Shown here: positions 19,701 to 23,914 of the stretch, in pieces
How positions within the stretch are numbered: position 1 is the stretch's first letter
Layout of the letters: the number at the start of each line of letters is the position of its first letter
Source: Methylocystis sp.
Lineage (GTDB): Bacteria > Pseudomonadota > Alphaproteobacteria > Rhizobiales > Beijerinckiaceae
DNA length: 40,546 nucleotides
Reading direction: 5' to 3'
Assembly: GCF_021731785.1 (NCBI RefSeq)
Contig: NZ_JAKFWS010000050.1
Coordinates: 1 to 40,546, forward strand
Position numbers and translations under genes: made by a program
Notes under the pieces: model-generated
Seen by the model: only the letters and a program-made list of their open reading frames with translations
Told to the model about the DNA's origin: nothing
The model's database searches: none

Positions 19701-20897
19701 TCAGACGCGACGCGCGATCACGACTCGGTTGCTGTTGACGCCCTTCACATTGTTGGCGACGCCCCAACAGTTGCTAGTTTTGGTGAAGCTCTGCGCATTG
19801 ACCAGCACGCCGAGCCGCTCGAACGGAAGCTCGTCGAGCGCGCGCCAGACCAGTTGCTCCAAAGGAAGCGCGCCGCCCCTCACTTCGCCGACCTCATAAG
19901 CGACGTGGCCGCCGGGCTTCACCACTCGGGCCAGTTCGGTAAAAACCGCACGTGTCATCGCGCTCCAGTCTCGCGGCGCGCGAAGTTGCGAGAGGCTGAT
20001 GCCCCCGGCGTCGATTCCCGCAAACCAGTTGCGCAGCCAATTGTCTCCGCGATAATCGACGACATCCAGAAACGGTGGCGAGGTGACGACGAGATCGACC
20101 GTTGCGTCACCGATGTGCGTCAAGCGCGCCGCGTCGGCCACGGCGAGCTCAGCGTCGCAAGCGAGCGGCGCGCCTTCTGCGAGCAGCGCGCGCGATTTCT
20201 TGAGAATCAGCTCGCCGATGTCGCGCCGCGGCGGCGTTTGCGCGCGACGCGCGTTGATCTTCAGTTGCGCCTTGATCGACACGGCCTGGTTCGGCGGCAT
20301 CGTATAGACCGAAAAGAATCCGGGCGAGTGGCCAGTCAATCGATTGAGCGCCACCATCCGAAGCCAGTCGTCGACGGCGTCAAGGACGCCGTCGTTCTCG
20401 CGCACGAGCAGATAATGGCGCAGCGCGCAAATCTGCCGCAGCGTCTCAAAATGATAGAAGGCGAGAAGATCGTCGCGTTCGATTTCGCCGCGCCCCCACG
20501 GCGCCGCCGCCAGCCGCGCCTCGATCTCGCCAAGCGTTGGAGGACGCAGCCGCGGTCGCGTCAAGAGCAGCGACAGCGGATTGGCGTCGGACCCGATCGG
20601 CTTTCGTCCCATGAACGCCGCTTGCAGAACGCTGGTGCCGCGCCCCATGAATGGATCGCACAGGACATCGCCCGGCTGCGTCAGCCGATCGATGAAGAAC
20701 GCCGGGAGCTGCGGCTTGAAACAGGCGCGATAGCTGATCTCATGGAGCGGATGCGCGCGCCGTTGTCCGGCGGTCCAGAAGGCGTTGACGTAATAGGCAA
20801 CGCCTTCGGCGATGACGACGCTGGTCGGCGCGCCGAACTCCGACCGCCGCAATTCCTGAAAAAATCCCGAGTCCGTGAACTTTAGGGCGGCGCTCAT
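19701..20897 (-). CDS. Solitary DNA (N4-cytosine or N6-adenine) methyltransferase
   Basis: 398 residues. The SAM-binding motif I is DPFMGRGT (81-88), followed by SDANPLS (acidic motif II), and the catalytic motif IV is TSPPF (272-276), of the type used to methylate exocyclic amino groups of cytosine-N4 or adenine-N6. Motif I comes first and about 185 residues lie between it and motif IV, so the probable target-recognition region sits between them, an alpha-like order. No restriction endonuclease gene lies nearby, so this looks like an orphan methylase with a regulatory or protective role. It starts 3 bases after the stop of the XRE/HigA gene, so the two are almost certainly co-transcribed. 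The recognition sequence cannot be predicted. Confidence 0.85.
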   Translation of the reverse strand: MSAALKFTDSGFFQELRRSEFGAPTSVVIAEGVAYYVNAFWTAGQRRAHPLHEISYRACFKPQLPAFFIDRLTQPGDVLCDPFMGRGTSVLQAAFMGRKPIGSDANPLSLLLTRPRLRPPTLGEIEARLAAAPWGRGEIERDDLLAFYHFETLRQICALRHYLLVRENDGVLDAVDDWLRMVALNRLTGHSPGFFSVYTMPPNQAVSIKAQLKINARRAQTPPRRDIGELILKKSRALLAEGAPLACDAELAVADAARLTHIGDATVDLVVTSPPFLDVVDYRGDNWLRNWFAGIDAGGISLSQLRAPRDWSAMTRAVFTELARVVKPGGHVAYEVGEVRGGALPLEQLVWRALDELPFERLGVLVNAQSFTKTSNCWGVANNVKGVNSNRVVIARRV

Positions 20898-20900
20898 GCC

Positions 20901-21185
20901 TCAATCGCGCCGACGATCGGCGAGACTCGGCAACGACTTGATCCTCGCTCCGGCCGCGCGGCGCGCGAGCGAAAGTTCATATTGAGTCTGCAACTCGAGC
21001 CAATCTTCGGGTTCGACCCCAAACCAATGCCCGAGCCGCAACGCCGTATCGGCGGTGACCCCGCGCTGCCCGTTGATGATGGCGGTGACCCGATTGACCG
21101 GCACGTCGATATCTCGCGCCAGGTCCGACGCCGTCAGTCCAAGGTCCTGCAAATGACGGGCGAGAATTTCGCCGGGGTGCGACAT
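20901..21185 (-). CDS. HigA/VapI-type XRE-family regulator
   Basis: 94 residues beginning MSHPGEILARHL, the standard opening of HigA antitoxins. It carries an XRE helix-turn-helix (about 14-58: LGLTASDLARDIDVPVNRVT, then INGQRGVTADTALRLGHWFG) and the VapI tail EPEDWLELQTQYEL. HigA binds DNA as a dimer and neutralises the HigB RNase. No higB is found upstream or downstream, so this is an orphan regulator. The ATG 21183-21185 is chosen for the GGAG 8-11 bases before it and the match to family starts. The frame stays open upstream to 21371, but that part is Arg/Pro-rich. It is directly followed by the methyltransferase, which it may control. Confidence 0.85.
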   Translation of the reverse strand: MSHPGEILARHLQDLGLTASDLARDIDVPVNRVTAIINGQRGVTADTALRLGHWFGVEPEDWLELQTQYELSLARRAAGARIKSLPSLADRRRD

Positions 21186-21222
21186 CCCATTCTCCATCGA
21201 CGCCAGTTTGCGTTTTGCCGAA

Positions 21223-21240
21223 CGCGGGCGAACGCCCGCG
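21223..21240. promoter_or_regulatory. Palindrome upstream of the HigA-type gene, candidate operator
   Basis: CGCGGGCG at 21223-21230 and CGCCCGCG at 21233-21240 are exact reverse complements separated by AA. The site is 38 bases upstream of the chosen higA-type start, where an autoregulatory XRE protein would bind. Its high GC content makes chance occurrence possible. Confidence 0.35.
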
Positions 21241-21402
21241 CGTCGCAGCCGTGGTGGACGGCGCGCATTCGCGGGCGCTCCGCCCCGAACGCCGCTCAAG
21301 AACCGTCTGGTGAGCTCTTCATGGTAGCGGCCCATGCCCCGCCCCCGCCGAATATCGTTTTCGTAAACCATATTATCTGGTCCGCAAACTCGGCTGAGGT
21401 CA

Positions 21403-22527
21403 CTATGCGCTTTCGCCCTCGATCCATTTCGCGCGCGTTTCGGCGATGAAGTCGGCGAGACAACCGGCGGCGATCGCCGCGCGCAGGCCCGACATCAATT
21501 CCTGATAGTAGGCGACATTGGCTTGCGTGAGCAGCATCATCCCAAGAATCTCCCCCGCTTTTACGAGGTGGTGCAGATAGGCGCGCGAATAATCGCGCGC
21601 TGCGGGGCAGGACGACTGCTCGTCGAGCGGCCGCGAGTCATCGGCGTGGCGCGCATTACGCAGCGTCACCCGTCCATGACGGGTATAGGCCAGGCCGTGT
21701 CTACCTGCGCGAGTCGGCATCACACAATCGAACATCTCGACTCCACGCGAAACAGCTTCGACGATGTCGTCAGGCGATCCCACGCCCATAAGATAACGAG
21801 GCTTTGATTCGGGCAAATGCGGGGCGGTGGTCTCGAGCATGTCGAGCATCACGTCCTGAGGTTCGCCGACGGCGAGACCCCCGACGGCGATCCCGTGGAA
21901 ATCCATGCCGGCGAGCGCTTTGGCGCTTTCGATCCGAAACCGCTTCGACTCGCCGCCTTGCACAATGCCGAACACCGCCCTGCCCGCGCGTGCCCGAAAA
22001 GCCTCGCGCGAGCGCTCGGCCCAGCGCAGCGAGAGGCGCATGGCGCGTTCGGCCTCGTCTTCGGAACATGGCAGGCGCACGCATTCGTCAAGCTGCATCT
22101 GAATGTCCGAACCTAGGAGATCCTGAATCTCCATCGAGCGCTCGGGCGAAAGATGATGTCGCGACCCGTCGATATGCGACTGGAAGGTGACGCCGCTTTC
22201 ATCGAGCTTGCGCAGCTTTGCAAGCGACATCACCTGAAAGCCGCCCGAATCGGTGAGGATCGGATAGGGCCAGCGCATGAATTCATGCAGGCCGCCGAGC
22301 CGCGCGATCCGCTCTGCGCCCGGCCGCAGCATCAGATGATAGACATTGCCGAGCAGAATGTCGGCGCCGGCACCGCGCACGTCCTCGGCGAACATCGCCT
22401 TCACCGTCGCCGCCGTGCCGACCGGCATAAACGCCGGCGTGCGGATGGTCCCACGCGGCGTCAGGATTTCGCCTTGCCGCGCCGATCCGTCGGTCGCAAG
22501 AACGGAGAACGAAAAACCCTGCGTCAC
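21403..22527 (-). CDS. tgt: tRNA-guanine transglycosylase lacking canonical zinc ligands
   Basis: 374 residues. Tgt replaces guanine-34 of GUN-anticodon tRNAs with preQ1, the committed step of queuosine modification. The general-base Asp93 (TDSGGFQ) and nucleophile Asp267 ([13 protein letters not shown]) are present, as is LDEC (147-150), which in bacterial enzymes contacts preQ1. The C-terminal zinc site, CxCxxC plus a His 26 residues later in Zymomonas and E. coli, reads S305-S-C307-P-A-A310 with Ala336 at the His position, so only one of four ligands remains. The fold around it ([11 protein letters not shown]) is otherwise intact. It starts at GTG 22525-22527, overlapping the stop of the unknown gene by 4 bases (GTGA). 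Confidence 0.95.
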
Positions 22528-22856
22528 TTGTGGTCCTTTGCGCCGAGCGCGGCAATCTTCACGATGCGGTAAACGCCGCTGTCGCTCTCATTGAACCATA
22601 CGACGAAATCCGATCCGATCTTTATCGTCGCCTCGCGCAGGTCCGTTCGCCAACTCGCGCCTCGCCCAAAGTCGATCCGCCCGTCGCGGCGCAGGATGAA
22701 CGGACGGACGCAGTCGCCGTCGAGCGCGAACGCGCCGAAGAGCTCCCATGTCGAAGCGATGCGCATGTCTTCGATCCGCGCGTCGATGGTCATCGGCGCT
22801 TCTCTTGGATCGTCCCGCCAGAGCGCCAGAATGCGCATGTCGCGAGCGTCGCTCAT
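22524..22856 (-). CDS. Unknown 110-residue protein coupled to queA and tgt
   Basis: 110 residues with no signal peptide, membrane helix or recognised motif. The sequence looks like a compact beta-rich soluble domain: [58 protein letters not shown]. Its ATG overlaps the queA stop (ATGA, 22853-22856) and its stop overlaps the tgt start (GTGA, 22524-22527), so all three are translationally coupled. This placement suggests a role linked to queuosine synthesis or to Tgt itself, but that is inference. The alternating charged and hydrophobic pattern and even composition argue that it is a real gene. Confidence 0.8.
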
Positions 22857-23914
22857 GTCTCAAAGCGCTGCAGCAGACAGGCGTCGCCATAGGAATAAAA
22901 GCGATAGCCGCTTTCGATCGCATGCGCATAGGCGGCCTTCATGCGCTCGAGGCCCACGAATGCGGCGACCAGCATGAACAACGTCGAGCGGGGAAGATGG
23001 AAGTTGGTGAGCAGCATGTCGACGGCGCGGAAACGATATCCCGGCGTGATGAAAATTCCGGTGCGCTTCGCATAAGGCGCAATCCTGCCGGCGTCGTCCG
23101 CCGCGCTTTCCAGCACGCGCAGCGCCGTCGTGCCGACGGCGACGATGCGGCCGCCCTGCGCTCGCGTCTCATTGAGCGCCTGAGCCGTTTGCGCGTCGAG
23201 TCGCGCAAATTCTTCATGCATCTTGTGCAAGTCCGTGTTTTCCGCCTTCACCGGAAGAAACGTGCCCGCGCCGACATGCAGCGTCACGCGATGAAGGCCG
23301 ACGCCGCGCGCTTTGATCGCCGCCAGCAGTTGCGTGGTGAAATGCAGGCCGGCCGTCGGCGCGGCCACCGCTCCCGCTTCGTGCGCAAAAATCGTCTGAT
23401 AATCCGTCTCGTCGCGCGCGTCGGCCGAGCGCCTGCCGGCGATATAGGGCGGCAACGGCATGACGCCCGCCTGCTCGATTGCAACGTCCAGCGCCGGTCC
23501 GACAAGATCGAAAGCAAGCGTAATCTCGCCGTCATCGCCCTTGGCTTCGACGTGCGCGTCAAGCCCGCTGTCATCGTTAGCAAACCGAATGCGATCTGCA
23601 ATTGCGAGTTTCTTCGCCGGGCGCATCAATGCGCGCCAATGTGAGGCGTCAAGCCGTTCGATCAGCGTCGCTTCGACGTTGGCGCTCAATTGGCCGCGCA
23701 GGCGCCGACCGGAAAGTCGCGCGTGAATGACCCGAGAATCGTTGACGACCAGCGCATCTCCCGGTCGCAAATAGTTGGGCAAGTCCCGCACCCGCCGGTC
23801 CTCGAAGCCAGCTTTCGCCGGCACGACCAGCATACGCGCGCTGTCGCGCGGGCTCGCAGGCCGCAACGCGATGCGCTCCGCCGGAAGTTCGAAATCGAAG
23901 AGATCGACGCGCAT
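22853..23914 (-). CDS. queA: S-adenosylmethionine:tRNA ribosyltransferase-isomerase
   Basis: 353 residues, full length. QueA transfers and isomerises the ribosyl part of SAM onto preQ1 at position 34 of tRNA, giving epoxyqueuosine. Family signatures are [17 protein letters not shown] at the N-terminus, [33 protein letters not shown] and the C-terminal [16 protein letters not shown]. The enzyme is soluble and works directly after Tgt, encoded two genes downstream. The start is ATG 23912-23914; the ribosome-binding site is weak. A palindromic repeat lies 17-39 bases upstream of the start, between queA and the cyclophilin gene. Confidence 0.97.

Follow-up and report, generated by a model that had tools for sequence, protein, structure and literature searches.

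The tgt gene of Methylocystis sp. in all likelihood encodes a working tRNA-guanine transglycosylase (Tgt) of the queuosine pathway, whose structural zinc site, judged by sequence comparison, has been lost as a fixed trait of the lineage. The gene is located on a stretch of 40,546 nucleotides (NCBI RefSeq assembly GCF_021731785.1, contig NZ_JAKFWS010000050.1, positions 1 to 40,546 of the forward strand), which was analysed as a whole and is called the window. Its product belongs to a real, clade-wide form of the known enzyme that lacks the zinc ligands and is very likely active, and the window protein itself would then be active, carry no bound metal and be stable without it. The gene and its two catalytic positions, with Zymomonas numbering in brackets, are as follows.

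21403..22527, minus strand: tgt, tRNA-guanine(34) transglycosylase, 374 amino acids, GTG start, identified as an open reading frame matching TIGR00430
22249..22251, minus strand: codon 93, catalytic Asp (Asp102), Asp in 258/258 sequences lacking the full ligand set
21727..21729, minus strand: codon 267, catalytic Asp (Asp280), Asp in 258/258 sequences lacking the full ligand set

A match of 461.3 bits to the TIGR00430 equivalog, whose cut-off is 306.75, identifies the product as a full-length bacterial Tgt; PF01702 is matched with 495.7 bits, and the best relatives with a solved structure are those of Zymomonas mobilis Tgt (E ~1e-141). Family, length, the catalytic Asp pair and the GGLAVGE pocket are shared with the zinc-type enzymes of Zymomonas and E. 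coli, which also fall in TIGR00430. The predicted fold is the Tgt barrel with its C-terminal subdomain, and the Zymomonas chain 1q2r_A matches this model over the whole chain (372 residues, 1.2 A). All catalytic and base-binding residues assigned by the Zymomonas alignment (D93, D147, Q190, G217 and D267) are present in the window Tgt, as the first-pass annotation had stated for the two aspartates, and all five are kept in 258/258 Tgts without the full ligand set in an alignment of 384 sequences. When the own genome (a 4.2 Mb draft in 197 contigs) was searched with PF01702, the window tgt was the sole match; hence a second, zinc-type copy, which would mark a Zur-controlled zinc-sparing paralogue, was not detected by this profile in the draft genome.

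Zinc-type Tgts carry the motif CxCxxC...H, which is absent from the window Tgt, where S305, C307, A310 and A336 align without gaps in the region opposite Zymomonas Cys318, Cys320, Cys323 and His349. These four residues and the flanking motif [11 protein letters not shown] (residues 311-321) are those given by the first-pass annotation, and the gap-free alignment confirms them. Written in this order, the canonical ligand set is CCCH and the window reads SCAA. The counts below refer to the 150 sequences read from the window's order.

21613..21615, minus strand: codon 305, Ser replacing zinc ligand Cys318; Ser in 134/150 of the order, Cys in 35/35 outside the class
21607..21609, minus strand: codon 307, Cys, the sole canonical ligand retained (Cys320); Cys in 133/150, otherwise Trp, Asn and others
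21598..21600, minus strand: codon 310, Ala replacing Cys323; Ala 102, Ser 22, Thr 10
21520..21522, minus strand: codon 336, Ala replacing His349; Asn 51, Ala 47, Ile 26, Val 13

The sequences compared were taken from genomes of the window's order, class and phylum and from the best 80 named loci by match to the window, a choice that favours close relatives and may overlap in species with the other genomes sampled. Within the order, a scan of 150 genomes gave a match in 144 and none in 6, with G134 yielding a marginal match of 56 residues with stops; 138 of the 144, own genome included, were read together with 12 further order genomes to give 150. The class outside the order is represented by 119 rows from 117 genomes, about half of those with a match, made up of the best matches and of others hand-picked for spread, and the phylum outside the class by 35 sequences, likewise hand-picked for spread from 126 with a match. 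As these class and phylum rows were chosen among the matches listed rather than drawn at random, their counts are not unbiased frequencies. Dropped before counting were two copies of the window (L001, L002), a fragment (L116), three partial sequences (L289, L311, L312) and three repeat fetches; L284, whose site aligns variably as CNLH or --CH, is non-CCCH either way.

The full CCCH set was found in 0/150 genomes of the window's order, which cover 48 families, and in 0/72 named Hyphomicrobiales among the best 80 named matches, including Rhizobium, Sinorhizobium, Agrobacterium, Mesorhizobium, Brucella, Bartonella, Bradyrhizobium, Methylobacterium and Bosea. Judged by these named matches, the window's order is probably Hyphomicrobiales. 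Among the same best 80, five of five loci without a stated order lack CCCH and three of three Rhodobacterales have it. Elsewhere in the class, 88 of the 119 rows among the matches listed have CCCH and the 31 without it represent 19 families, while outside the class CCCH is present in all 35 sequences read of the 126 with a match among those listed. In the 384-sequence alignment, 258 thus lack the full set and 126 possess it. As far as these alignments reach, the loss is beyond chance, since 150/150 of the order depart from CCCH and 35/35 outside the class keep it, and the neighbouring columns are no less conserved. An alignment with other members of the order had been proposed as a check; the suggested trait of some Rhizobiales turns out to be wider, covering all 150 order genomes and further families outside, with scattered losses in others. 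Some alphaproteobacterial genomes also hold a strongly divergent Tgt (L290-L310, 39-46% identity), in which CCCH is kept in 18/21 loci and lacking in L291, L298 and L309. In one order genome, a full Tgt is accompanied by L116 (G061:C17:79000-79800), a pair of short and divergent stretches that resemble Tgt, one of which contains an in-frame stop.

Where Zymomonas and E. coli Tgt have the ligands Cys-Cys-Cys-His, the form without a zinc site has either Ser, Ala or Asn, which are small or polar, or the hydrophobic Val, Ile or Leu, and in the order these columns vary by 0.78, 0.82, 1.60 and 2.23 bits at 305, 307, 310 and 336, respectively. Cys307 is kept in 226 of the 258 sequences without the full set; it is replaced in 17/150 order sequences, Trp and Val included, and none of the four ligands is retained in 14/150. 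Among the best 80 named loci, residue 307 is Trp in Bradyrhizobium, His in Rhodopseudomonas and Pseudolabrys, and Ser in Methylocapsa. Since some lineages have Trp, Ser, Asn, His, Val or another residue in its place, Cys307 is, by its sequence distribution, no necessary remnant and has no special role. His336 is retained in 32 of the 258, and 28 of these 32 have Ser310. Zinc-type Tgt is taken as ancestral because every outside-class sequence read has CCCH. Together with the CCSH, SCSH and SCSN forms that are seen as living intermediates, the Ser310/His336 forms suggest a stepwise path, whose direction would lead from CCCH through CCSH or SCSH and SCSN or SCAN to SCAA, SCAV or SCAI. By the genetic code, most of these steps would be single base changes (Cys to Ser, His to Asn, Ser to Ala). 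The first-pass annotation had regarded the loss of three ligands as one joint event and as an adaptation; a real, conserved form without the ligand set is borne out, whereas the existence of intermediates speaks against jointness, and a selective advantage receives no support from the results here.

The subdomain that holds the zinc site in other Tgts keeps both its sequence and its predicted fold.

21493..21657, minus strand: former zinc subdomain, residues 291-345

Mean pairwise identity over residues 291-345 is 0.688 in the order vs 0.647 in 61 zinc-type alphaproteobacterial sequences, and over residues 299-323 it is 0.725 vs 0.648. These 61 are part of the 88 with CCCH, with divergent and later-fetched rows omitted (18 of the omitted rows have His277), and since they were selected for CCCH the invariance of their ligand columns is true by construction, so that the 35 outside-class sequences serve as the unselected reference. 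Block means of pLDDT for residues 291-350 are 96-98 with a mixed alignment and 95-98 when the alignment consists of 34 sequences that are all without the full CCCH set, values that bear weakly on stability because zinc-type Tgt structures have probably been learned by AlphaFold, which does not model metals. An altered dimer interface had also been suggested but receives no support: the dimer hot spot is largely preserved in the 258 sequences without CCCH, with Tyr317 and His320 in 258/258, Phe83 in 230 and Tyr313 in 235. The ex-zinc subdomain would hold its fold and the dimer contacts by ordinary packing.

No substitute ligand set is visible, as a search of the alignment for other Cys/His sets gave none, in keeping with the earlier view that the ligands are lost. 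When the order was compared with the 61 zinc-type alphaproteobacterial sequences, no new Cys/His cluster was found, and a single His was the only newly fixed Cys or His.

21697..21699, minus strand: codon 277, His, a marker of the lineage that never varies in the order; 150/150 of the order, 0/61 zinc-type alphaproteobacterial sequences

Over all 384 rows, His277 is present in 243/258 without CCCH and in 19/126 with CCCH. It was rejected as a replacement ligand, as Thr or Asn takes its place in 15/258 CCCH-less sequences, including the loss in family f163, and as zinc-type Tgts can possess it; a linked-change test of His277 against zinc loss had no more than 2 independent pairs to draw on among the starred branches. 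His277 may affect tRNA contact. The Tgt could bind some metal elsewhere.

The setting of the gene is that of queuosine synthesis, in which Tgt would exchange guanine 34 of GUN tRNAs for preQ1 and QueA and QueG would then complete queuosine.

22853..23914, minus strand: queA, next queuosine step, upstream of tgt; above cut-off for both NF001140 (457.2 bits) and TIGR00113 (363.8 bits)

On the same strand, queA lies upstream of tgt in 109 of the 121 order or Hyphomicrobiales loci whose flank spans 1.3 kb or more (the named ones being among the best 80); elsewhere in the class this holds for 13/32 zinc-type and 14/19 other loci, and for 3/8 remaining loci. The own genome further has matches over cut-off to QueG (447.2 bits), QueF (148.9 bits) and QueC (199.5 bits), and a QueD-like protein that scores 84.2 bits, below the cut-off of 89.25. 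Four Cys are kept at the C-terminal end of QueC, and the QueD-like protein has retained its His and HxH residues, which we take to be zinc ligands; since both proteins retain metal-type residues, Tgt looks like the one member of this genome's pathway to be affected by the loss.

Published genetics on other species of genera found in this set, Sinorhizobium and Bartonella, shows that Tgt is functional in the order. As passages of PMC3568095 report, tgt (SMc01206; queA is SMc01207) is required in Sinorhizobium meliloti for the que phenotypes seen with HeLa cells and in symbiosis, its loss is not bypassed by preQ1 in the HeLa-cell assay, and a queA mutant has little or no symbiotic defect. The Tgt of the congener S. 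kostiense, among the best 80 named matches, reads SCAN. Bartonella henselae bTGT, from the window's order and with GGLAVGE at the same residue numbers 216-222, acts on preQ1 in E. coli, where it restores queuosine in a queDF tgt mutant supplied with preQ1 at concentrations as low as 10 nM, a complementation that is partial, and it differs from the window Tgt in serving salvage and not a de novo pathway, according to parts of PMC11570991, in whose main text the word zinc is absent. All five Bartonella loci read are SCAN, the sequence of B. henselae not being among them. The reading of an active window Tgt is limited in that the published function concerns other species of the same genera and in that the B. 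henselae complementation is partial.

Error in sequencing or assembly of the window has a negligible probability: the own genome is a draft, yet it is refuted by independent genomes, as a genome of the same genus reads SCTA at the four zinc positions and all 150 order genomes read lack CCCH, in agreement with the initial judgement on this point. It is also highly improbable that the gene is undergoing decay or has acquired another function under relaxed selection on a dispensable enzyme. Such decay would account for the variation of all four ligand columns in the order, which is largest at 336, but outside these columns the protein equals its zinc-type relatives in conservation, the gene is matched in 144/150 order genomes, queA is upstream in most loci and tgt mutants show phenotypes in Sinorhizobium, as parts of PMC3568095 describe. 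Slightly more room, though still little, is left for a metal bound at a rebuilt site formed by Cys307 and, for example, His277, His319 or His320. The frequent retention of Cys307 and the invariance of His277 in the order, together with its absence from the 61 zinc-type sequences, would fit such a site; however, Cys307 gives way to residues such as Trp and Val in the order, His277 is missing from some CCCH-less sequences, f163 included, and present in some zinc-type ones, His320 occurs in both groups as part of the dimer hot spot, and His319 is common to both groups.

How often the site was lost was approached with a quick PMSF tree of 144 rows, from which the ligand columns and position 277 were omitted. 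In this tree, 60 rows without CCCH form one group (SH-aLRT 98) composed of 51 that belong to the order or to named relatives and 9 from other parts of the class, while the long-branched f4 rows of the order fall outside this group, as do other CCCH-less rows, several among zinc-type rows. Parsimony counts 9 changes, of which the starred branches force 2. For AU tests, 12 of the 144 rows, mostly long branches (f4, f59, f134 and f95 among them), were removed and the rest thinned to 73. A single clade of all CCCH-less rows, and with it a single origin of all losses, was weakly rejected (p 0.034); it was not rejected without f163 (p 0.32), and without f163 and f76 the constrained tree was as good or better (p 0.60). 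A single loss with later spread of the zinc-free gene by horizontal transfer, in place of repeated loss, is unlikely but the most credible of the alternatives: it would suit the two forced changes, the unrejected grouping of all rows but f163, and source genomes G338 and G348 that are listed with 10% and 8% contamination (L041 from G338 is identical to L039 in the kept columns, and L038 and L160 both come from G348). Against it stand the weak rejection of the single clade and the position of f163 among zinc-type rows without the lineage marker His277. Repeated loss is thus preferred, with one large loss and probably at least one more, the site having disappeared in a large alphaproteobacterial clade and probably again elsewhere, by way of intermediates with Ser and His.

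Archaeal TGT belongs to the same superfamily and keeps the zinc site, and ligand mutagenesis has reportedly been carried out on E. coli Tgt. The field view for E. coli, as stated in parts of PMC9508795, is that zinc is required for TGT activity, and passages of PMC6165067 regard the zinc domain as a hallmark of TGTs and also describe the site as kept in eukaryotic QTRT1/QTRT2 of the same superfamily. No report of Tgt without zinc ligands was found in searches of the open-access PMC literature. A related case is offered by Alphaproteobacteria, in which C- genes have taken the place of the C+ genes for nearly all ribosomal proteins that bind zinc, as parts of PMC3087516 state. Like Tgt, C- proteins such as S4 have lost a structural zinc site and kept their function; unlike Tgt, which is single copy in the one genome searched, both forms occur in some genomes and transfer has been invoked, again by parts of PMC3087516. 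The two losses may be linked. A broader proposal, held tentatively and at slightly less than an even chance, is that the whole order and several neighbouring families would make queuosine with a naturally zinc-free TGT, able to form dimers and to catalyse in the absence of metal, its site lost at least twice by the same Ser310/His336 route in the same zinc economy as that of zinc-free ribosomal proteins. If so, zinc in TGT would be a dispensable structural glue and the statement that TGT requires zinc would be valid for some clades only. A natural ligand-less form spread across rhizobia, methylotrophs and Bartonella would permit a direct test of the role of zinc in dimer stability and catalysis, with CCSH, SCSH and SCSN as living intermediates for the dismantling of a structural zinc site, and a zinc-binding annotation copied to every Tgt would be wrong for such forms.

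Between queA and tgt there is an open reading frame of 110 amino acids (22524-22856, minus strand) that overlaps each by 4 bases; it has no NCBIfam or Pfam match, and among the fetched loci its only homologue (69%) is in the same-genus genome L261. On the other side of tgt, 20901-21371 (minus strand) encodes a HigA-family antitoxin-like helix-turn-helix protein (TIGR02607, 82.6 bits), and the gene next to it, 19701-20897, matches the DNA-methylase family PF01555.
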